From assembly GCF_000026145.1 (NCBI RefSeq), contig NC_009445.1:2852001-2916000 (forward strand): 64,000 nt of DNA, written 5' to 3'. The notes beneath the pieces were generated by a model. It did no database searches, was not told the DNA's origin, and saw nothing but the letters and a program-made list of their open reading frames with translations. A program made the translations under genes and the position numbers. Positions within the stretch are counted from its first letter, which is position 1. The number at the start of each line of letters is the position of its first letter. Shown here piece by piece: positions 3-47,278 of the stretch. This DNA is from Bradyrhizobium sp. ORS 278. GTDB taxonomy: Bacteria; Pseudomonadota; Alphaproteobacteria; Rhizobiales; Xanthobacteraceae.

Positions 3-1937
3 CTGATCGTCGACGCCACCGTCATCATGGTGGAGGCGATCTTCCGCCGCCTGACCCAGACCACGCCGTTGTCCGCGGCCGAGTCGAGCCACATCTCGCC
101 CGAGACGATGATGGGGATGAAGAGCCACGCGATCCTGTCGGCCGCCGCCGACGTGTCGCGCTCGATCTTCTTCGCCGCCGCCATCATCATCGCCGCCTTC
201 CTGCCGCTGTTCACCTTGAGCGGCGTCGAGGGCAACATCTTCGGGCCGATGGCGCGCACCTATGCCTATGCGCTCGCCGGCGGCCTGCTTGCGACCTTCA
301 CGGTGACGCCGGCGCTCAGCGCGATCATCCTGCCGGCGCATGTCGAGGAGACCGAGACGCGGCTGATGCGGATCCTGCACGCGATCTACGCCCCGGTGCT
401 GCGCTGGGCGGTGGGCAACCGCAACCTGGTGATGGCCGGCGCGGTCGGCCTGGTGCTGCTCACCGTGGTGGTCGGCCGGCTGCTCGGCCTCGAGTTCCTG
501 CCCAAGCTGGAAGAGGGAAATCTCTGGATCCGCGCCACCCTGCCGCCGACGATCTCGCTGCAGGAGGGCAATTCCTACGTCAACGAGATGCGCAAGATGA
601 TCCGGGCGCGTCCCGAGGTCGAGGCGGTGGTCTCGCAGCATGGCCGTCCCGACGACGGCACCGACGCGGCGGGATTCTTCAATGCCGAGTTCTTCGCGCC
701 GCTGAAGCCGGTCAAGGACTGGCCGGGCACCAAGGACAAGGATCAGCTCACGGCCGAGCTGTTGAAGCAGCTCGACGACCGCTTCCCGGGCGTCGAGTTC
801 AACTTCTCGCAATATCTGCAGGACAACGTCTCCGAAGCCGTGTCCGGCGTGAAGGGCGAGAACTCGATCAAGCTCTATGGCAACGACCTGCAGGCGCTCA
901 CCGACACGGCCAACAAGATCAAGCAGGTGCTGTCGACGGTTCAGGGAGTCACCGACCTCGCGGTGTTCACCTCGCTCGGCCAGCCGACGGTGCAAATCGA
1001 CATCGACCGCGCCAAGGCCGCGCGCTATGGGCTGGCGCCCGGCGACATCAACGCGACCATCAAGGTCGCGATCGGCGGCGATACCGCCGGAGACCTCTAT
1101 GAGCCCGGAAGCGACCGGCATTTTCCGATCATCGTCCGCCTCGCGCCGGAGTATCGCAAGAGCGCCGAGGCGATCGAAAATCTGCGCATCGGCGCGCAGG
1201 GGCCGAACGGCATCACGCAGATTCCGCTGAGCGAGGTCGCGACCATCAAGCTGGTGTCGGGCGCGGCCTATATCTATCGCGAGCAACAGGAGCGCTATCT
1301 CCCGATCAAGTTCTCGGTGCGCGAGCGCGACCTCGGCAGCGCCATTCAGGAGGCGCAGCAGAAGGTCGCCGATCAGGTGCAGCTGCCGCCCGGATCGCAT
1401 CTGGAGTGGGTCGGTGAGTTTGGCAATCTGCAGGACGCGATCAAGCGGCTGTCGATCGTGGTGCCGATCAGCCTCGCTTTGATCGGCGTGCTCTTGTGGT
1501 TCAATTTCGGCTCGATGGCCGACACCTTGCTCGCGATGAGCGTGATCCCGATGGCGATCTTCGGCGGCGTCGTTGGCCTCGTGCTGACCGGCATTCCCTT
1601 CAGCGTGTCGGCGGCGATCGGCTTCATCGCCTTGTTCGGCATCGCCGTGATGGACGGCATCATCATCCTGTCGCAGTTCAACCAGCTGATCGACGAGGGT
1701 GTCGACCGCATCGAGGCCGTCATTCGCACCGGCGAATTACAGTTGCGTCCGGTGCTGATGACCTGCGTCGTCGCCGGCATCGGCCTGATGCCGGCCGCGG
1801 TGTCGACCGGCATCGGCTCGCAGGTGCAGAAGCCGCTCGCGATCGTCGTGGTCACCGGCATGATGCTGGCGCCTGCTGTCATCCTGATCACGCTGCCGGT
1901 CCTGATCTCGCTGTTCTCCCGCCGAAGGGTCCGCTAG
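3..1937 (+). CDS. Heavy-metal RND efflux pump, CzcA/CusA type (5' end missing)
   Basis: Inner-membrane proton-driven pump subunit that would work with a periplasmic adaptor and an outer-membrane channel. The reading frame is open from base 3, where LIVDATVIMVE matches the TM4 signature of the heavy-metal RND branch, so the gene starts upstream of the window; about 644 residues are visible, compared with roughly 1040 for the family. Later segments include LLWFNFGSMADTLL and LFGIAVMDGIIILSQFN, as expected for the TM10-TM12 block, with the second periplasmic porter domain between. The stop shares the bases CTAG with the stop of the convergent ABC ATPase gene, a 4-base tail-to-tail overlap. The substrate cannot be told from this fragment; a divalent metal ion is likely from the family. 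Confidence 0.9.
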   Translation: MIVDATVIMVEAIFRRLTQTTPLSAAESSHISPETMMGMKSHAILSAAADVSRSIFFAAAIIIAAFLPLFTLSGVEGNIFGPMARTYAYALAGGLLATFTVTPALSAIILPAHVEETETRLMRILHAIYAPVLRWAVGNRNLVMAGAVGLVLLTVVVGRLLGLEFLPKLEEGNLWIRATLPPTISLQEGNSYVNEMRKMIRARPEVEAVVSQHGRPDDGTDAAGFFNAEFFAPLKPVKDWPGTKDKDQLTAELLKQLDDRFPGVEFNFSQYLQDNVSEAVSGVKGENSIKLYGNDLQALTDTANKIKQVLSTVQGVTDLAVFTSLGQPTVQIDIDRAKAARYGLAPGDINATIKVAIGGDTAGDLYEPGSDRHFPIIVRLAPEYRKSAEAIENLRIGAQGPNGITQIPLSEVATIKLVSGAAYIYREQQERYLPIKFSVRERDLGSAIQEAQQKVADQVQLPPGSHLEWVGEFGNLQDAIKRLSIVVPISLALIGVLLWFNFGSMADTLLAMSVIPMAIFGGVVGLVLTGIPFSVSAAIGFIALFGIAVMDGIIILSQFNQLIDEGVDRIEAVIRTGELQLRPVLMTCVVAGIGLMPAAVSTGIGSQVQKPLAIVVVTGMMLAPAVILITLPVLISLFSRRRVR

Positions 1938-2635
1938 ATGCGCATGTGCTCGTCGATCCGCGCCGCTGAATCCGCATCGATGGCGGCAGCATCCACGATC
2001 TCGCCACGCTTGAACACGAGGTAGCGATCGCTGATCGACAACGCGAACGGCAGATGCTGCTCGACCACGATCATGGAGGTGCCGATCTCGTGGCGGACCC
2101 GCACCAGCACCTCGGACAGACGATCGACGACGGACGGCTGCAGACCTTCGGTGACCTCGTCGAGCAGCAGCACGTCGGGCTTGGCCATCAGCGCGCGGGC
2201 GACGATCAGCATCTTCTGCTCGCCGCCCGACAGTGTGCCCGCGCGCTGGCTGAGCCGTTTGGTCAGCACTGGAAACCAGCCGCCGACCTGCTCGAACAGC
2301 GCATCGATGTCCTTGTCCGACAGCAGCCCGAGCCGGAGATTGTCGCGGACGGACAGGTCCTGGAACAGGGCATGCTCCTGCGGCACATAGACCAGACCCA
2401 TCTTGCGCTTCAGATGCGGCGCCACCCGCGTCACGTCCTTGCCCGCGAGCCTGACGCTGCCGCGCCAGGCCGGCAGGAAGCCGAGAATGGCCTTGAGCAG
2501 CGAGGTCTTGCCCATGCCGTTCTTGCCGACGATGGCCAGCGTCTCGGCCTTCGCCAGCGCAAAGCCGACATTGCTGATGACCTCAGAGGAACCATAGCCG
2601 CTGGCGAGCTCGTTGACTTCCAGCATGGTGCTCAT
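1934..2635 (-). CDS. ABC transporter ATP-binding protein, LivF/UrtE type
   Basis: Second ATPase of a branched-chain-amino-acid/urea/amide-type importer, 233 residues, the usual LivF/UrtE length. Walker A is GKNGMGKTS near residue 37, the signature is LSGGEQ and Walker B is VLLLDEVTEGL. Its ATG overlaps the stop of the upstream permease-ATPase fusion by 4 bases (ATGA), which indicates translational coupling. It is the last gene of the locus that starts with amiC and amiR, so its cargo is probably a short amide or urea-like compound rather than leucine; that is inferred from the neighbours. Confidence 0.93.
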   Translation of the reverse strand: MSTMLEVNELASGYGSSEVISNVGFALAKAETLAIVGKNGMGKTSLLKAILGFLPAWRGSVRLAGKDVTRVAPHLKRKMGLVYVPQEHALFQDLSVRDNLRLGLLSDKDIDALFEQVGGWFPVLTKRLSQRAGTLSGGEQKMLIVARALMAKPDVLLLDEVTEGLQPSVVDRLSEVLVRVRHEIGTSMIVVEQHLPFALSISDRYLVFKRGEIVDAAAIDADSAARIDEHMRI

Positions 2636-4446
2636 GCCGGCACCTCCGCATGCGTCACGTGCTGTCCGGTATAGATCTCGCGCACCAGCTCGCTGTTGAC
2701 GACCTCGTCGACCGAGCCGTCGAGCGCGAGCCGGCCCTGATGCAGCACGATGATGCGCGAGGAGATCTCGCGAACGAAATCGAGATCGTGCTCGACGAGC
2801 AGAATGCAGAGGCGGTCGCGCCGGGCGAGGGTGGTCAGGATGTCGGCAAATCCCTGCCGCTCGGCGCGCGTCAGGCCGGCGGTGGGCTCGTCGAGCAGCA
2901 GCACGTCCGGCTCGAGCGACAGCACCATCGCCAGCTCAAGCGCCTGCTTCAGCCCATGGCTGAGATTGCGCGCCTCCTCGTCGAGCCGTTCGCCGAGGCC
3001 GGAGCGTTCAACGACGGACATCGCCGCTGGCGGAAGAGCCAAGGTGTCCGAACGTGATGTGAGCGCGGGCGGATCGGCATGCGTCCGCGCGACGCGCAGG
3101 CATTCCGCGACGGTCAGCGTCTCAAAGACAGACGCCGTCTGGAACTTGCGGCCCAGACCGAAACGCACGACGCGATCCGGCGGCAGCCGGGCGATGTCAT
3201 GGCCGGCGATCGAGACGTCGCCGGTCGAGCGCTCGCGTCCGTCGGACAGGCAACGGATCAGGGTGGTTTTACCGGCACCGTTGGGACCGACCAAGCTCAG
3301 CAATTCGCCGCGGTAGGCCGTGAACTGCACGCCGTCCAAGACGGCGAGACTGCCGTAGCGCTTGCCGAGTGCGCGTACTTCGATCGCGACGGCATCAGGA
3401 TTGCTGACGGCGGTGGCGGTGACAGCCGGCTGCAGACGCGTCTGAGCGCCTGCCGAACGCCCGCGCTTGACCAGGCGCATCACTGCGCCGAGCAGGCCAT
3501 CCGGAAAAACGAGGATCACAGCGATCAGCGCCACGCCGACGATCAGCTCCCAGACGTAGGGAAGGCTGTTGGCGAGATAGGCGCTGGCGACCTCGATGCA
3601 CAGCGCGCCAATCACTGGGCCGATCACGGTGCCGCGGCCGCCGAGCGCGACCATGATCACGAGGTTGGTGCCGAAGGTGAAGCTGGCATTCTCGGGAGCC
3701 GCGACCGCGCCGAAGCCGGCATAGAAGAAGCCGGCCAAGGCGGAGACGATCGCGCAGAGCACCAGGACGACGATCCGCAGGCGGGAGGTGTCGATGCCGA
3801 GATAGGTGCAGCGCGCGTCATTGTCGCGCAGCGCTGACAGCAGCCGGCCGGTGTCGCTGCGCATCACGACGAGCGCAAGCACCGCGGTTGCGAGCAGTCC
3901 GAGACCGGCAAGGCGCAGCCAGGTCTCGATCTCCAGGTCGAAACTCTCGAAGCCGACGAGGCCACTCGACGATCCTGTGAACGTGCCGCCGGAGTAGAGG
4001 ATCTGCACCAGCACGATCGGCACGACCAGCGAGATCACCGACGCGTACAGCGGCGTCGAGCCGGGATAGAACGACAGCCAGCCGGTGAAGGCGGCAACGG
4101 CCGCTGCAACCGCGACCGCGGCGCCGATCGCAGCAAAAATCTGCCACGTGCCGAAGCCGTATTCGGTGAACATGATCGCGAGCGCATAGGCGCCGATGCC
4201 GAAGAACGCGGATTGCCCGAACGTCAGCGTGCCGCAATAGCCCCACATGATGTCGACGGTGATCGCCGCGATCGCCACGAAGCAGGCGCGCACCAGGATG
4301 TTCACGAGATAGGTGTCGAGCAGCAGCGGCGCGACGAGGATCACAGCGGCGGCGAGCGCCACCAGCAACGCGGGAACGATCACGCGCGGCAGCGCCCGGC
4401 TCGTGGATGATGTTGCAGGAGAGGCGAGGGGGCGCGCATCAGGCAC
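2632..4446 (-). CDS. Fused ABC permease (LivM/UrtC) and ATPase (LivG/UrtD)
   Basis: Inner-membrane importer subunit of 604 residues joining two usually separate proteins. Residues about 20-330 are a LivM-type permease with multiple hydrophobic segments; residues about 350-604 are an ATPase with Walker A GPNGAGKTT, signature LSHGLKQ and Walker B VLLLDEPTAGL. LSHGxKQ is the form typical of UrtD-like urea/amide ATPases. The start chosen is GTG at 4446, with GGAGGG eight bases upstream and an 8-base overlap with the end of the permease gene before it; a longer frame to 4497 adds arginine-rich residues without family likeness. The frame is continuous, so the fusion is real in this sequence. Confidence 0.9.
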   Translation of the reverse strand: MPDARPLASPATSSTSRALPRVIVPALLVALAAAVILVAPLLLDTYLVNILVRACFVAIAAITVDIMWGYCGTLTFGQSAFFGIGAYALAIMFTEYGFGTWQIFAAIGAAVAVAAAVAAFTGWLSFYPGSTPLYASVISLVVPIVLVQILYSGGTFTGSSSGLVGFESFDLEIETWLRLAGLGLLATAVLALVVMRSDTGRLLSALRDNDARCTYLGIDTSRLRIVVLVLCAIVSALAGFFYAGFGAVAAPENASFTFGTNLVIMVALGGRGTVIGPVIGALCIEVASAYLANSLPYVWELIVGVALIAVILVFPDGLLGAVMRLVKRGRSAGAQTRLQPAVTATAVSNPDAVAIEVRALGKRYGSLAVLDGVQFTAYRGELLSLVGPNGAGKTTLIRCLSDGRERSTGDVSIAGHDIARLPPDRVVRFGLGRKFQTASVFETLTVAECLRVARTHADPPALTSRSDTLALPPAAMSVVERSGLGERLDEEARNLSHGLKQALELAMVLSLEPDVLLLDEPTAGLTRAERQGFADILTTLARRDRLCILLVEHDLDFVREISSRIIVLHQGRLALDGSVDEVVNSELVREIYTGQHVTHAEVPA

Positions 4447-5275
4447 GGGCAAAGCCCTCCGGCCGGATCCGCAACACGATCGCGGCGCAGATCGCAATGG
4501 TCAGGCCACCCAGGATCGGATTGACGAAGGTCGAGACCAGCACCTGCAGCGTTCCCAGCACGGCGCAGGAGCCGGCCAGCGCCAGCAGCGAGCCGCCCGA
4601 GACCATCACCAGCATGAAGGCGCCGATCAGCCAGGGCACGCCCATGTTCGGATCGACGCTCGATAGCGGCGTGATCAGCGCGCCGGACAGCGCGGCGAGT
4701 CCGCTGCCGAGCGCGAAGGTGATCAACCGGACGCGCGATGAATCGACCCCGAGTCCCTGCGCCAGCATCTCGTTCATGATCACGGCCTTTGTCGAGAGAC
4801 CCAGTCGCGTGCCATTGAGCAGGCCGGTGAAGAGCAGGCCGACGATAGCGGCGGCTACGATCATCACCAGCCGGTAGGCCGAGTAATCGGCGCCGAACAG
4901 ATGCACCGTGCCCGAGATCGGCGCCTGCACGAACTGCACCTCGCGGCCGAACATCAAGGTGATGAGCTGTCCCAGCACGATGCCGAGGCCCCAGGTAGCG
5001 AGGATCGCATCGAGCGGGCGCTGATAGAGACGGCGGACAATAACAATTTCAGTAGCCCCGCCACAGATCGCGCCGGCGATGAAGGCCAGCGGCAGAACCA
5101 GGAACCAGGGCAGGCCCAGCTGCGCGCCGACGAGGGCCGAGTAAGCGCCGACGGTGAGGAAGGCGGCATGGGCGAAGTTGATAATCTTCATCACGCCGAA
5201 CACGATCAGGAGACCGGCGGCGATGATGAAGAGCATGGCGGCCGTCGTGACGGCATCGAGGGCGACGGTCAGCAT
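4439..5275 (-). CDS. ABC permease, LivH/UrtB type
   Basis: First permease subunit of the amide/urea-type importer, 278 residues, almost wholly hydrophobic. The segment GVMKIINFAHAAFLTVGAY is the usual LivH/UrtB hallmark near the N-terminus. I chose ATG at 5275, which has GGAAG a few bases upstream; a GTG four codons earlier at 5287 lacks a visible Shine-Dalgarno. The stop overlaps the start of the permease-ATPase fusion. It lies between the binding-protein gene and that fusion, in the standard order for this transporter class. Confidence 0.93.
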   Translation of the reverse strand: MLTVALDAVTTAAMLFIIAAGLLIVFGVMKIINFAHAAFLTVGAYSALVGAQLGLPWFLVLPLAFIAGAICGGATEIVIVRRLYQRPLDAILATWGLGIVLGQLITLMFGREVQFVQAPISGTVHLFGADYSAYRLVMIVAAAIVGLLFTGLLNGTRLGLSTKAVIMNEMLAQGLGVDSSRVRLITFALGSGLAALSGALITPLSSVDPNMGVPWLIGAFMLVMVSGGSLLALAGSCAVLGTLQVLVSTFVNPILGGLTIAICAAIVLRIRPEGFARA

Positions 5276-5350
5276 GGTCACTTCCACTTGAGAGAAGCGG
5301 GGCGGGCTGTAGTCCGCCCCGCGGGATCATACGCGATCAGGCGTGCTGTT

Positions 5351-6511
5351 TCACGACTTGCCGGGGCACTGCGCGCCGGGATCGACGTCCTTGAAGCTCT
5401 GGATCACCTTGACGCTGCCGTCGGCCTGAACCTGGCCGAGATACATGGTCAGCGGCGCGTGGCGCTGCTTGTCCATCTTGATGGTGCCGCGGGGACCATC
5501 GACCGAGACCTCGGCGAGCGCCTTCAGTACTTTGTCCTGATCGGTGCTGCCGGCCTTCTCGACCGCGGCCTTGTAGGCGTAGACGGCCTCGTACTGCGGA
5601 ACCGAGAGATCATTCGGGGTCTTGAGCTCGGCGCCGAACTTCTTCGCCATCGAGGCCAGGAAGGTCTTGTTGGCCGGCGTGTCGATGCCGGTCACGTAGG
5701 AGGCAGACAGATAGATGCCGGCAGCATCGGCGCCCATGCCCTTGGCTGTGCCTTCGTCCACGGCGAGATTGCCGTAGGGCAGGTTCACGCCGGCGGCGCG
5801 CAGCTGCTTGGTGAGGGTGACGTTCGGCGCGCCGCCCGCGGTCGAGGTGATCAGCGCATCGGCGCCAGAGGCCTTCAGCTTGGAGATGATCGAGGTCCAG
5901 TCGGAGCCGTCCATCGGCAGATATTCCTCGCCGACGACTTTGCCGCCGGTCTTCTCGATATACATCTTCGTAAACGCGAGCATGCCGCGGCCGAAGGCAT
6001 AATCGGAGCCGATCAGGAAGTAGTTCTTCGCCTTCTTCTCCTTGTTGAAGTAGTCGACGATCGGCGGCACCTGCTGGTCCGGCACCCAGGCGTTGACGTA
6101 GAGATAGGGGCTGCACGACTTACCCTCGTAGAACGAGGTGTAGATGTAGGGCGTCTTGCCGCGCGCGACGATCGGCAGGCCGGCATTGCGGGCCGCGCTG
6201 GTCTCCATCGAGATCAGCACGTTGACCTTCTTCTGGAAGATCAGCGCGTCGAACGCCTTCTGCGCGCCGGCAGCGCCAGAAGCGTCGTCAGCGACTTCCA
6301 GCTCCAGCTTGCGGCCGAGCACGCCGCCCTTGGCGTTGATCTCCTCGACCGCCAGCTCGGCGGATTGCACCACCGACGGCGCGACGACGGAGTTGGCGCC
6401 GGACAGGCCGACGGGAACGCCGATCTTGATCGGATCGGCGGCGAAAGCGGACGAGAGCGCGGTCGCCGCGAAGGCGAGCGCGAGTGAAGTGGTGAGCAAA
6501 CGTGATGTCAT
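5351..6511 (-). CDS. Periplasmic substrate-binding protein, AmiC/UrtA-like
   Basis: Exported binding protein of the importer, 386 residues from ATG at 6511, which has GGAGG seven bases upstream; a start 8 codons earlier would put that ribosome site inside the gene. The N-terminus SRLLTTSLALAFAATALSSA is a signal peptide with cleavage near AFA-ADP. The mature part starts IKIGVPVGLSG and has the type I periplasmic-binding fold seen in urea and amide receptors. It is a distant relative of the cytosolic sensor AmiC encoded upstream in the same locus, so one locus carries two related ligand binders in different compartments. The ligand is inferred to be a short-chain amide, nitrile or urea. Confidence 0.92.
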   Translation of the reverse strand: MTSRLLTTSLALAFAATALSSAFAADPIKIGVPVGLSGANSVVAPSVVQSAELAVEEINAKGGVLGRKLELEVADDASGAAGAQKAFDALIFQKKVNVLISMETSAARNAGLPIVARGKTPYIYTSFYEGKSCSPYLYVNAWVPDQQVPPIVDYFNKEKKAKNYFLIGSDYAFGRGMLAFTKMYIEKTGGKVVGEEYLPMDGSDWTSIISKLKASGADALITSTAGGAPNVTLTKQLRAAGVNLPYGNLAVDEGTAKGMGADAAGIYLSASYVTGIDTPANKTFLASMAKKFGAELKTPNDLSVPQYEAVYAYKAAVEKAGSTDQDKVLKALAEVSVDGPRGTIKMDKQRHAPLTMYLGQVQADGSVKVIQSFKDVDPGAQCPGKS

Positions 6512-6553
6512 CGTTGGTCCTCCATGAATGGTCAAAACAGAAAGGCGAAGTTG

Positions 6554-7429
6554 TCAGTACCAACCGCGCTTGACCTCGCTGCCGAGCATCTCGTCGTAGA
6601 CGTCGGAGCGACGGTCGCGCAGGACCTGGTTGAAGGCGTTCCAGTTGCGGGCGCGGCGGGCCTCGCCGAGCGCCACATCGGCGATCACGATCTCCTCCTT
6701 GTCGCGGCTCGCAGGACCGGCGACCGGCCAGCCGGTGTAGCTGACGATCAGGCTCTGGCCTTCGAACGGCTGACCGCGCTCGACGCCGACGCGGTCGGCG
6801 CAGGCGATGAAGATGGAGTTGGAATGCGCCGCCGCCATCGCCAGGATGTTGGCCATGGCCTCGCGTCCCGGCGCCTGGCCAGGGATCGGCACCCAGTTCG
6901 TCGGCACGCAGACGATGTCGGCGCCCTGCAGCGCGTTGAGGCGATAGGTCTCCGGGAACCACCCGTCATAGCAGATCGCCATGCCGATGCGGCCGATCTC
7001 GGTGTGGTAGACGGGGAAGCCCAGATTGCCGGGCTCGAAATACAGGTTCTCCTCGTTCCACAGGTGCACCTTGCGGAACGTGCCGATGTAGCCCTTCGGC
7101 CCGATCAGCACCGCGCTGTTGTAGAGCTTGGTCCCGTCGCGCTCGCATATGCCGGCGACGAGATGCAGGCCGTGCTTGGCCGCGATCTCGCTCCATGCGG
7201 TCATCGCGGGGCCGTTGGGAATTGTCTCCGAGGCGGCGAAGGCCTCCTCGCGGGATTTGAACACGTAGCCGGAGGAGGCGAGTTCGGGGAGCACCACGAG
7301 CTTGGCGCCTTGCGCCACCGCCTGTTGGATCAAATCGAGGCTGTGGGCGAGGTTGGTGGCCAACTCGCCGACCATCGGCTGCATCTGGATGCAGGCGATC
7401 CGCAGTTTGCTGTCGTCATCCGTCGTCAA
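6554..7429 (-). CDS. Nitrilase-superfamily amide/nitrile hydrolase
   Basis: Cytosolic carbon-nitrogen hydrolase expected to release ammonia from an amide or nitrile. The catalytic triad is visible: Glu49 in LPELASSGY, Lys120 in FRKVHLW and Cys153 in AICYDGWFPE. I chose the TTG at 7429, which has GGAG nine bases upstream and gives 291 residues; the frame is open to 7588, but that extension runs through the leader terminator and has no family likeness. It is first in the transport operon and directly follows the amiR leader, so it is the likely main target of AmiR antitermination. It is shorter than classical AmiE (about 345 residues) and belongs to a different branch, so the exact substrate is unknown. 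Confidence 0.9.
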   Translation of the reverse strand: MTTDDDSKLRIACIQMQPMVGELATNLAHSLDLIQQAVAQGAKLVVLPELASSGYVFKSREEAFAASETIPNGPAMTAWSEIAAKHGLHLVAGICERDGTKLYNSAVLIGPKGYIGTFRKVHLWNEENLYFEPGNLGFPVYHTEIGRIGMAICYDGWFPETYRLNALQGADIVCVPTNWVPIPGQAPGREAMANILAMAAAHSNSIFIACADRVGVERGQPFEGQSLIVSYTGWPVAGPASRDKEEIVIADVALGEARRARNWNAFNQVLRDRRSDVYDEMLGSEVKRGWY

Positions 7430-7473
7430 GGCACGAGTCTCCGTTGCGTTCGCGAGGATCGCGCGCGCCAAAC

Positions 7474-7514
7474 AAAAAGCCCCCGACTGCGCCTTGCGGC
7501 GCAATACGAGGGCT
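7474..7514 (-). terminator. Intrinsic terminator in the leader of the amide operon
   Basis: Read on the minus strand, arm AGCCCTCGTATTGCGCC, loop GCAA, and arm GGCGCAGTCGGGGGCT are followed by TTTTTG. It lies between the stop of amiR and the TTG start of the hydrolase, the position at which an ANTAR protein relieves termination. Without antitermination, transcripts entering from amiR should end here. Confidence 0.85.
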
Positions 7515-7567
7515 GCATAGCCTGATGTGAAATGGCCGACCGGCCATTGGCGGACATGCGATGTCCG
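7511..7567 (-). promoter_or_regulatory. Hairpin cluster before the terminator, candidate ANTAR (AmiR) target
   Basis: Three hairpins lie just before the terminator on the minus strand: GGACAT-cgc-ATGTCC (7552-7566), AATGGCC-ggtc-GGCCATT (7531-7548) and GGCT-atgc-AGCC (7511-7522). The last uses the same AGCC bases that form the 5' arm of the terminator, so the two cannot form together. A fourth hairpin, GCCCA-N5-TGGGC (7641-7655), lies nearer amiR. ANTAR targets are known to be paired hexaloop hairpins with A at loop position 1 and G at 4, the second overlapping a terminator. Taking GGC/GCC as the stem, the overlapping loop is TATGCA, which has G at 4 but T at 1, so the match is partial. Confidence 0.6.
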
Positions 7568-7669
7568 CAACGACCACAAGTAACTCAAATGCGCGATACG
7601 AAGTCAACGCCGTCGCCTGCAAAAATTTGAGGCCGCCGCTGCCCAACGCGTGGGCGCAACAATTGGCCC

Positions 7670-8311
7670 TCAGCGGGAAACCGGCGCATCCAGCACCCCC
7701 AATCCGCCCAATGTCTCCTGTGCGTTGATGATCGAGATCGCGATGTCGGCCATCGCCACGCGCTTCTGCGTCGCCTGGGCGCGGATCAGCTCATAGGCCT
7801 CGACCTCGCCCACCTGCTTCAACCCCATCAGGATCTTCACCGCCTTGTCGACGTCGCGCCGCGCTTTCAACGTCTCCTCCAGCTTCTGCACCTTGCCTTC
7901 GAGCCGTCGCGTGTAGCCGCGCAGCGAGCGGGCCAGCACGAGCGAAGAGAGGATGCCGAACGAGCGGATCGGCTTGTTGACGACGCCATGCGCGTTGCTG
8001 TCGAGCAGGCGCTTGAGGATGGTCGGATTCTCGTAGTCGACGATGGCGATGAAGGTGAGCGGATGCTCGGTGGTGCCTTCCGGGAAGATCATCTCCTCCG
8101 AGGTCTCGATCAGCTGGAACACCGTGTCGATGTCGTGCGGGATCGCGGCCGGCGGCGGCCACACGCCGCGCACGTTGCAGCCGATGCGCTTGAGCTGATC
8201 GATCAGTGCGTCGCCTTCGGCATCGCGCGGATGGATGACCAGCACGCGGGCGCCTCGCAGCTCCTCGATGAGGCGGCGCACGCCGGGCTTCATGCGGTCA
8301 TCCGGCCTCAT
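7670..8311 (-). CDS. amiR: AmiR-type ANTAR antitermination regulator
   Basis: RNA-binding antiterminator of 213 residues. An N-terminal pseudo-receiver domain (about 1-125) is followed by a coiled coil (LEGKVQKLEETLKARRDVDK) and an ANTAR domain with the pattern ILMGLKQVGEVEAYELIR and IAISII. In Pseudomonas AmiR is held inactive by AmiC until an amide binds, then prevents termination ahead of the amidase gene. Its ATG overlaps the amiC stop by 4 bases, matching the need for a fixed AmiC:AmiR ratio. The leader just downstream contains hairpins and a terminator, the expected substrate. Confidence 0.93.
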   Translation of the reverse strand: MRPDDRMKPGVRRLIEELRGARVLVIHPRDAEGDALIDQLKRIGCNVRGVWPPPAAIPHDIDTVFQLIETSEEMIFPEGTTEHPLTFIAIVDYENPTILKRLLDSNAHGVVNKPIRSFGILSSLVLARSLRGYTRRLEGKVQKLEETLKARRDVDKAVKILMGLKQVGEVEAYELIRAQATQKRVAMADIAISIINAQETLGGLGVLDAPVSR

Positions 8312-9483
8312 GCTGACAGCGCCTCTTCGCTCAGCCAGCGGCCGCCGATCGGCGACACCGACAGATACGGATCCGGCTTGATCGGGCTCTTACTCTCCCA
8401 GACGATGTCAAACTGGCCGTCGGCGCGGACGCGGCCGATCCGCGGCGTCGTCCAGACATGGTTGTTGTCGGGATCGATTCGGATCGGTCCCTCCGGTGCT
8501 TCGAGGCTCAGGCCAAGCGCGGCTTCCACCAGTCTCTGCGTATCGAGGCTGCCGGCCTGTTCGAGCGCGCGCGCGAACAGCTTGATCTGCGCATAGGCCG
8601 AGGCGCTCCACATGCTGACCGGCGTGTCGGCCCCGAAGGTGGCCGCGAACGCCGCCTTGAAGCGGTCGTTGCTGTCCCGCGCAAGCGTGCCGAAATAGCT
8701 CGCGGCCGTGAGATGGCCCGCGCAATATTCGGCGCCGATGGCGCGCACCTCGCCCTCGGCCATCGTGAGGCTCGCGATCGGCAGCCGCTTCGGATCGAAG
8801 CCTGCCTCCGCGTACATCCGATAGAACCGCTGCGCGGTACGGCCGACGATGGTCGAGAACACGACGTCTGGCACGGCGTCCTTGATGGCCGCAAGCCCGC
8901 GCGTCAGCTCGGCGTCGGTCGCCTCCATCGTCACATATTGCTCGCCGACGACGCGGCCGGCATAGGACTCGACGAGGTCGCGCATGATGCGGTTGGATTC
9001 GCGCGGATAGATGTAGTCCGAGCCGATCAGATAGACGCGCGGTCCATGCTTGCGCACGATGTATTCGGCGAGCTGGAACGCATTCTGGTTCGGCGCCGGG
9101 CCGGTGTAGATCACGTTCGGGGAGTATTCGAAACCTTCGTAGAGCGAGGGATACCACAGCAGGCCGTTGCGGCGCTCGATCGCCGGCAGCACCGCCTTGC
9201 GCTCCGCCGACGTCGAGCAGCCGAAAATGATGGAGGCGCCGTCCTCGGTGAGCAGGCGGTCGGCGAGCTTGCGGAAGGTTTCAGGCTGCGAGCCCGGATC
9301 ATAGGCGATGACCTCGATCTCGCGGCCGAGCACGCCGCCCGCCTTGTTGATCTCCTGGATCGCGAGCGCCGTGCCGAAGAAGTGCTCGGACTCCGTGACC
9401 TGCATCAGGCCGCTGCGCGAGAACAGCACGCCGACGCGCCAGACATCCTTGTCGGATGATTTTGCGGCCGGTCTCGTCGTCAT
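8308..9483 (-). CDS. amiC: AmiC-type cytosolic amide sensor
   Basis: Ligand-sensing negative regulator of AmiR, 391 residues. It has the type I periplasmic-binding fold (VWRVGVLFSRSGLMQVTES, YPSLYEGFEYSPNVIYTGP) but no signal peptide, as expected for a cytosolic sensor. Three ATG codons are stacked at 9489, 9486 and 9483; the last has the best spacing (7 bases) from GGAGG and is chosen. amiC and amiR overlap by 4 bases and are transcribed toward the hydrolase and transporter genes. The ligand is presumably the amide, or a product analogue, handled by this locus. Confidence 0.92.
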   Translation of the reverse strand: MTTRPAAKSSDKDVWRVGVLFSRSGLMQVTESEHFFGTALAIQEINKAGGVLGREIEVIAYDPGSQPETFRKLADRLLTEDGASIIFGCSTSAERKAVLPAIERRNGLLWYPSLYEGFEYSPNVIYTGPAPNQNAFQLAEYIVRKHGPRVYLIGSDYIYPRESNRIMRDLVESYAGRVVGEQYVTMEATDAELTRGLAAIKDAVPDVVFSTIVGRTAQRFYRMYAEAGFDPKRLPIASLTMAEGEVRAIGAEYCAGHLTAASYFGTLARDSNDRFKAAFAATFGADTPVSMWSASAYAQIKLFARALEQAGSLDTQRLVEAALGLSLEAPEGPIRIDPDNNHVWTTPRIGRVRADGQFDIVWESKSPIKPDPYLSVSPIGGRWLSEEALSA

Positions 9484-9489
9484 CATCAT

Positions 9490-21929: not shown

Positions 21930-22071
21930 TGAACGTGTGCCCTGGCGGTTACGACAGAAGGTATGTGGGAGCGGTGATCCCCTCCCCATAGCTATATCAG
22001 GCGCGAGCGCCCATCCACCCCAAGCGCCCATATGGCTCGAGCCGTCCGGTTGTCCCCCCGGACGGCTCTTT
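21930..22071 (+). ncRNA. Candidate small RNA with a CCCCTCCCC loop and intrinsic terminator
   Basis: In a 610-base gene-free gap, a hairpin TATGTGGGAG-N10-CTCCCCATA (21962-21990) exposing a C-rich loop is followed by a GC-rich stretch and an intrinsic terminator. This is the form of a free-standing sRNA able to pair with purine-rich ribosome sites. TTGAAC near 21930 could be a -35 element, but I find no certain -10. The rest of the gap shows nothing else. Confidence 0.35.
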
Positions 22072-46695: not shown

Positions 46696-46831
46696 GCGTC
46701 TCGCGGTGCCGGGTGCCTTCAGGGCCCGGCTGTGCTTTGGGCGCTGACCGGTTGTTGGGTCCTCAGAACGAAGCCTGCATCGGCCCGGCGCTCCTTCGTA
46801 TCCATCTTGCTCCTAGGAGGACTTGGCTATG
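46696..46831 (+). promoter_or_regulatory. ROSE-type RNA thermometer in the hsp20 leader
   Basis: The leader has hairpins GCCGGG-N11-CCCGGC (46708-46730) and ACGAAG-N20-CTTCGT (46768-46799) and a final segment CTTGCTCCTAGGAGG (46806-46820) in which CTCC pairs with GGAG of the ribosome site across a TA loop and a bulged G, the ROSE hallmark. The known Bradyrhizobium ROSE ends in TTGCTCCTTGGAGG. At low temperature the ribosome site should be masked. Confidence 0.85.
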
Positions 46832-47278
46832 AGGACGTATGATTTCAGCCCGCTGTGGCGTTCGACCATCGGTTTCGATCGCCTGTTCAGCCTGCTCGAC
46901 GAGACCCAGCGCGCCGTCGAGGACAACTATCCCCCTTGCAACATCGAGCGGATCGGCGACGACCGCTATCAGATCTCGCTGGCCCTGGCCGGCTTCGCGC
47001 CGGATGAGCTCTCCATCACGGCCGAGCACAATGTCCTGACGGTGGAAGGCCGGAAGGTCGAGAGGGAGAGCCGCGAGTACCTCTATCAGGGCATCTCGTC
47101 GCGGCCCTTCAAACGGCAGTTCAACCTCGCCGACTACGTGCAGGTGACGAACGCCTTCTTCGACAACGGCCTGCTGCGGATCGAAATGGTGCGCGAAATC
47201 CCCGAGGCCATGAAGCCGCGCCGCATCGCCATCGGCACGTCGCCGGTCGAGCAGATCGCGCCGCAGCAGGCCGCCTGA
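46829..47278 (+). CDS. Small heat-shock protein, Hsp20/alpha-crystallin family
   Basis: 149 residues from ATG 46829. An alpha-crystallin domain spans about 38-130 (YPPCNIERIGDDRYQISLAL, ITAEHNVLTVEGRK, NLADYVQVTNAFFDNGLLRI). It binds unfolding proteins as an ATP-independent holdase, IbpA-like. AGGAGG lies eight bases before the ATG and is part of the ROSE hairpin. A further small gene follows within 90 bases. Confidence 0.95.
   Translation: MRTYDFSPLWRSTIGFDRLFSLLDETQRAVEDNYPPCNIERIGDDRYQISLALAGFAPDELSITAEHNVLTVEGRKVERESREYLYQGISSRPFKRQFNLADYVQVTNAFFDNGLLRIEMVREIPEAMKPRRIAIGTSPVEQIAPQQAA

Follow-up and report, generated by a model that had tools for sequence, protein, structure and literature searches.

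The 237-nt gap between amiR and a CN-hydrolase gene on the minus strand of Bradyrhizobium sp. ORS 278 (7433-7669 of the window, the whole 64,000-nt stretch that was analysed) is very probably the leader of a hydrolase-transporter operon and an antitermination target of the adjacent AmiR, with a probability of about 0.88. Sequence comparison argues for the leader, for mutually exclusive pairing within it and for the link to AmiR. Release by an inducer, recruitment of AmiR and read-through are proposed by analogy with P. aeruginosa AmiC-AmiR and E. faecalis EutV. A preliminary description had placed here an intrinsic terminator preceded by several hairpins, one of which (GGCT-atgc-AGCC) would use the AGCC of the terminator, with amiC and amiR directly upstream. 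These points were borne out. P0, P1, P2 and the terminator were read in the sequence, and the domain matches of the two upstream proteins hold. The AGCC at 7514-7511 is common to P2 and the base of the terminator 5' arm, so that the two structures compete (Table 1).

Table 1. Features of the leader and its operon, listed in minus-strand order, followed by the second AmiR locus of the same genome. Positions are those of the window except for L068.
Feature	Position	Strand	Remarks
amiC-like sensor gene	8308..9489	-	393 aa; Peripla_BP_5, profile match
amiR	7670..8311	-	213 aa; AmiR_N pseudo-receiver and C-terminal ANTAR domain
Promoter-like sequence	7579..7607	-	TTGACT (7607-7602), 17-nt spacer, GTTACT (7584-7579); 8/12 consensus bases
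P0, extra hairpin upstream of P1	7550..7568	-	GCGGACAT-CGC-ATGTCCGC
P1 hairpin	7531..7548	-	AATGGC-CGGTCG-GCCATT; loop positions 1 and 6 pairable
Linker P1-P2	7523..7530	-	8 nt, TCACATCA
P2 antiterminator hairpin (predicted)	7511..7522	-	GGCTATGCAGCC; GGC-UAUGCA-GCC or GGCU-AUGC-AGCC; G at hexaloop position 4
Intrinsic terminator	7474..7514	-	8-bp base 7514-7507/7485-7478, apical stem, U-run 7478-7474
CN-hydrolase (nitrilase/amidase superfamily) gene	6554..7432	-	Probable start TTG at 7432
Periplasmic substrate-binding protein (Peripla_BP_6)	5351..6517	-	
UrtB/LivH-like permease	4439..5287	-	
Fused permease-ATPase (UrtC-UrtD-like)	2632..4437	-	
UrtE/LivF-like ATPase	1934..2635	-	
L068, second ORS 278 AmiR	C1:6094346-6094939		Own P1-P2-terminator leader; loops AAUGAU (P1), UAGGUA (P2)

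The order on the minus strand is amiC, amiR, leader, CN-hydrolase gene and ABC-transporter genes. The AmiC-like protein matched Peripla_BP_5 with 445 bits, and its gene adjoins amiR. Its best relatives among solved structures were 8tg1 and then P. aeruginosa AmiC (1qnl, E = 1.8e-91); judged by eye, an export signal is not obvious at its N-terminus. AmiR matched AmiR_N (PF21332, E = 3.8e-43, 146.4 bits with a cut-off of 27) and ANTAR (PF03861, E = 1e-11, 44.9 bits with a cut-off of 27.3), and is 99% identical to the AmiR of Bradyrhizobium sp. STM 3809. The TTG start of the hydrolase is our choice and agrees with where matches begin in close relatives. Among the matches listed (the best 25 for two of the proteins), none of the hydrolase and transporter proteins exceeded a curated NCBIfam cut-off. 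The same order is annotated in Rhizobium leguminosarum WSM2304, as a transporter substrate-binding domain protein, an ANTAR protein, a nitrilase family protein, a substrate-binding protein and a permease. On a Paraburkholderia plasmid (L153), an amiC-amiR pair has convergent formamidase and urt genes as neighbours, a hint that such operons may act on formamide or urea. A 333-aa open frame on the plus strand (6524-7525), opposite the hydrolase gene and the leader, is probably a by-product of high G+C content.

The leader RNA is predicted to start near 7572, downstream of the promoter-like sequence. In 35 of the 43 clade loci a TTGAC precedes P2 by 75-125 nt, compared with 3.1% of random 55-nt segments from the same loci. 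Some hairpin was found at the place of P0 in 38/41 loci, a raw count made with a loose criterion on variable sequence. Folding of 7440-7670, which the preliminary description had proposed as a check, gave -104.9 kcal/mol (z = -2.5), a value reached by 1 of 200 shuffles, and the core (7467-7568) gave -56.1 (z = -6.2) with none of 200 shuffles as good. P2 alone is weak at -3.5 kcal/mol (31/200 shuffles as good), so the terminator wins without help and is the structure of the protein-free fold. A simple terminator scan of the window missed it, probably owing to the bulge in its stem.

Loci for comparison were collected by genus, order and phylum searches (best 30 matches each) together with a scan of named genomes, and the AmiR set is accordingly a sample taken from the best matches downward. 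The element was present behind all 43 distinct AmiR proteins first examined in the clade that, like ORS 278 AmiR, has threonine at EutV position 172. It was recognized by pattern in 41 cases and by eye in two (L109 and L113, whose GGCU/AGCC arms enclose loops of 5 and 6 bases). L005 has an atypical P1, in which a 1x1 mismatch is followed by a C-G pair that closes a GGAU loop. Alignment A1 held 30 of the 37 distinct elements and left out L005 and six near-duplicates (L031/L034, L032, L052, L053, L105, L115).

Conservation of the leader with this AmiR clade was accompanied by covariation of the hairpins and terminator. Since the aligned sequences are kin, the covariation statistics are not probabilities: P1 and the terminator stem were paired in 98.7% of cells across the 30 distinct elements (87.9% in shuffles, 0/500 as high), and their covariation score was 0.460 versus 0.244 (0/500 shuffles as high), with slid controls at or below 0.183. 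Two weaker measures were less clear: of the 13 pairs, 7 had at least one change on both sides, which 12 of 500 shuffles reach, and there were 16 further pair types, which 106 of 500 reach. In L102 and L104 the shared arm carries a C-to-U change, and its partner G has become A in the 5' arm of P2 as well as in the 3' arm of the terminator. This double compensation is the clearest sign of competing pairing; both loci come from one genus and therefore count as one event. The P2 stem is nearly invariant (its outer pair is the same in 28/30), so the covariation of P2 itself rests on these two loci of a single genus. As the loci are related, linkage alone could also have kept the leader in the clade.

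The preliminary description had named two findings that would speak against it, namely a lack of conserved hairpins upstream of the terminator and transcription of the hydrolase from an own promoter downstream of 7474. The first was not found, as P1, P2 and the terminator covary. The second corresponds to an arrangement in which the role of the terminator is only to end transcription of amiC and amiR, a separate promoter serves the hydrolase operon and the hairpins would be incidental. A terminator behind amiR is sensible by itself, transcripts from upstream must also pass it, and the promoter-like box before P1 is weak at 8/12. Nevertheless, this conserved box precedes the terminator, and the stricter consensus scan gave no sign of a promoter downstream of 7474, although the upstream box went unlisted too. 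No more than 41 nt lie between the U-run and the hydrolase start codon. P1 lies outside the terminator, yet it covaries and is kept at near-fixed spacing. The P2 5' arm, likewise no part of the terminator, shows conservation and the matching change in L102 and L104. An own promoter with incidental hairpins is accordingly very unlikely, and the following concerns the leader as a target of AmiR.

A covariance model of P1 and the terminator was used to sample the distribution of the leader; several training sequences are among its matches in the genus. Strong matches (E = 1.5e-12 or better) were obtained in 19 of 265 Bradyrhizobium genomes. These are exactly the genomes with an AmiR at 75% identity or above, and each has one strong site. 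A class-wide sample of 385 genomes gave a strong match in one, ORS 278 itself; both the genus and the class searches used stricter filters, with which weak matches are lost. The ORS 278 genome contained no further model site at E = 0.01 or better (1 match in total). Plasmid loci outside the model were also considered. Ten were fetched from 140 records, and six of them had a Thr-type AmiR. Five of the six matched the model (E = 3.7e-6 or better), one with an atypical P1 (L151), and their independence is limited since the L152 leader equals that of L078 and L147/L156 resemble L006/L108. Directly downstream of the Thr-type AmiR gene of L150, on a Paraburkholderia plasmid, no such leader or terminator was seen.

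Beyond the strong matches, the genus search gave six weak ones. Three (L141-L143) lie at the 5' end of amiC in another AmiR pair, two (L144 and L146) directly behind an AmiR only 29% identical, and the last (L145) has no ami gene nearby and may be a chance match. One genome (G091) has an ORS 278-type site together with a weak site behind such a 29%-identical AmiR, about 7.7 kb apart on one strand; the weak site, its second and weak model match, has A4 in both loops. The 5' end of amiC in L141-L143 (position 1501-1570) and in L155 (position 1778-1844, a weak match) bears a hairpin-hairpin-terminator-like leader with a possible A1/G4 P2, GAGC-AGGGUA-GCUC. Autoregulation is possible there.

Alternative hairpins in leader RNAs can be controlled in many ways, and a metabolite riboswitch, a leader peptide or another RNA-binding protein might act here in place of AmiR. 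The distribution argues against this. Strong matches in the genus occur only in genomes with an ORS 278-type AmiR, and paralogous amiC-amiR pairs have hairpin-hairpin-terminator leaders of their own. In addition, no Rfam family was matched on the leader, either at the gathering threshold or at E up to 5. Control by something other than AmiR is hardly probable.

The proposed AmiR switch would operate as follows. RNA polymerase would begin near 7572 and stop by default at the intrinsic terminator near 7474. Binding of an inducer, possibly a short amide, to AmiC would release AmiR, whose dimer would be recruited to the preformed P1 (possibly also P0) and would then hold P2 folded. Folded P2 would take AGCC out of the terminator 5' arm. 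The terminator would thereby lose its bottom four pairs beside the U-run, so that polymerase could enter the hydrolase and transporter genes. Because amiC and amiR lie upstream of the terminator, they would escape it. A likely regulator is thereby proposed for an operon, so far uncharacterised, with which plant-associated bacteria would take up and hydrolyse a nitrogen compound.

The arrangement resembles P. aeruginosa amiE in its AmiC-like sensor, its AmiR_N-ANTAR regulator, and two small hairpins before an intrinsic terminator that precedes a nitrogen-releasing hydrolase operon. The target here is a CN-hydrolase with an ABC transporter, whereas that of P. aeruginosa is an amidase operon. The P. 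aeruginosa regulators are placed downstream in the same operon in the available text of PMC3369931 and PMC3369936; in ORS 278 amiC and amiR lie upstream of the leader. The leader shares with E. faecalis eutP the succession of P1, a short linker and a P2 that overlaps the terminator, and five ANTAR residues of EutV are kept. Unlike AmiR, EutV is a phosphorylated response regulator, and its loops need A1 and G4, whereas position 1 is C (P1) and U (P2) in ORS 278. The NasT targets of B. diazoefficiens (nos, nirA and others) offer a third parallel, with ANTAR antitermination of nitrogen genes in the same genus, but the regulator (NasS-NasT) and the targets differ, as far as the available text of PMC6759348 describes them. 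A search of the literature (titles and the starts of abstracts, mostly of open papers) found neither this leader nor loop variants of this kind described; some of the loci may be listed in the supplementary tables of PMC3369931.

The rule for ANTAR target loops, with A in position 1 (A1) and G in position 4 (G4), derives from EutV, NasR and the amiE leader. Three features of the dual-hexaloop motif are present in the ORS 278 leader: two small hairpins, a P2 3' arm within the terminator 5' arm, and a linker whose 8 nt fall within the 5-12 nt given for eut leaders in the available text of PMC3369931. The fourth is absent. The motif definition calls for A1 and G4 in both hexaloops, and the amiE loops are reported to have them (PMC3369931 and PMC3369936, from the portions available). 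The P1 loop of ORS 278 (CGGUCG) has neither base, and the P2 loop (UAUGCA) keeps G4 with U1 facing A6. The leader is therefore filed as a variant and not as a strict member of the motif. The recognition loops would be variants in which P2 keeps G4, and position 1 is not A and in P1 is half of a loop-closing pair.

Across the clade, U1, G4 and A6 were found in P2 in 28/28 six-base loops; L109 is misaligned at P2 in A1 and stands outside these 28, and the loop lengths of L109 and L113 differ. P1 has G at position 4 in 12 of 30 elements. Its positions 1 and 6 are pairable in 30/30 and covary, as A-U in 17, C-G in 12 and U-A in one. On the tree, the C-G loops form one subclade and the U-A loop one pair of relatives, which gives at least two independent double changes.

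These loops might simply be those of a standard A1/G4 target that have decayed, with AmiR tolerant of the change or regulation weak. P1 loops of other clade genera do have A1 (17/30), some with G4 as well (AGGGCU, AGGGUU), and both loops carry A1 and G4 at L007, the locus of a Met172 AmiR from another family of the order. The changes are ordered, however: positions 1 and 6 of P1 remain pairable throughout, P2 keeps U1, G4 and A6 in every six-base loop, and the stems are kept. Decay is therefore unlikely, and loops of a distinct kind read by AmiR are preferred.

The residues of the ANTAR domain were compared with EutV. ORS 278 AmiR keeps Arg142, Lys147, Glu160, Tyr164 and Arg175, and differs by Lys143 to Arg, Lys149 to Val, Met172 to Thr, Asn173 to Gln and Arg177 to Ala. 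In the available text on the EutV-RNA structure (PMC8934654), G4 is the base that is read, stacked on Tyr164, and A1 touches no protein. The reason for the conservation of A1 was left open, with the suggestion by those authors that it prevents cross-loop pairs. Met172 is described there as essential in EutV and is suggested to keep tetraloops out; this loop plug is outside the original motif definition. According to the available text of PMC3369931, induction was reduced by an A-to-U change in the first position of either eutP loop, and also by G32A and G56A. Met172 is present in EutV and P. aeruginosa AmiR, and the clade has Thr in 43/43. Among the matches listed, which comprise 102 distinct AmiR-like proteins, position 172 is Thr in 43, Met in 57 and a gap in 2. 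In a tree of 75 of these with P. aeruginosa AmiR, the Thr group requires a single change, with branch support of 78/80 and recovery in 76% of bootstrap trees; L010, with a gap at 172, is labelled Met on it.

Bradyrhizobium has other AmiC-AmiR pairs with their own hairpin-hairpin-terminator leaders, and a second AmiR of ORS 278 (L068) is one such case. L068 and 18 other loci were picked by leader similarity as group ii, and L182, L183, L185, L186, L190 and L191, fetched alongside, are outside it. All 19 chosen loci matched a pattern whose own requirements included U1 in the P2 loop and a closing C-G pair in P1. In this group a U/C mismatch interrupts the long P1 stem, the C-G pair closes the hexaloop, and G4 is found in 19/19. 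P2 has U1 and G4 in 19/19, with a loop of 6 or 7. Group iii (L157-L176 and L011-L013) is 23 of 33 matches at 32-35% AmiR identity, with 14 distinct leaders. Its AmiR is about 33% identical and keeps Met172, and its leaders have three hairpins. A4 was found in P0 in 23/23, in P1 in 22/23 (one G4 exception) and in P2 in 23/23, the most deviant loop set seen. From the effect of G32A and G56A, A4 would be expected to be harmful at EutV sites.

Replacement of Met172 by Thr was considered as the cause of U1 in P2 and was rejected, as the Met-type L068 and Aminobacter L149 also have U1. In the Thr172 loci seen, positions 1 and 6 are pairable in both hairpins. The Met proteins are mixed in this respect, with P2 positions 1 and 6 unpaired in L007 and group iii, U-A in group ii, and some P1 loops pairable, so that the tie between Thr172 and pairable loops is only suggestive.

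Within the AmiR family, loop position 1 is variable, and the base at position 4 depends on the group. These differences are read as a diversified recognition code, as judged from sequence; the alternative is loose recognition combined with inheritance. The guess of a variant recognition site, made in the preliminary description along with the observation that the loops miss the A1/G4 rule, is strengthened by the P1 1-6 pairs, the clade P2 loops and the loops of the paralogs. A more specific proposal is that paralogous rhizobial AmiRs evolved loop codes that insulate parallel switches in one cell. The plug-less Thr clade would read 1-6-closed, tetraloop-like loops and the G4 of P2, group ii (Met172) would read G4 in both loops with a long mismatched P1, and group iii would read A4, position 1 being structural and not base-specific. 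This proposal is tentative and has slightly less than an even chance of being right. A clade with 1-6-pairable loops and no Met172, together with the A4 group, makes the suggestions about A1 and Met172 testable on natural protein-RNA pairs. Searches that require A1/G4 would miss such switches.

Two other RNA elements were matched in the window. A ROSE heat-shock thermosensor element lies at 46709-46835 on the plus strand (Rfam RF00435, 58.5 bits), and a Rhizobiales-2 RNA at 21967-22068 on the same strand (Rfam RF01723, 97.5 bits).
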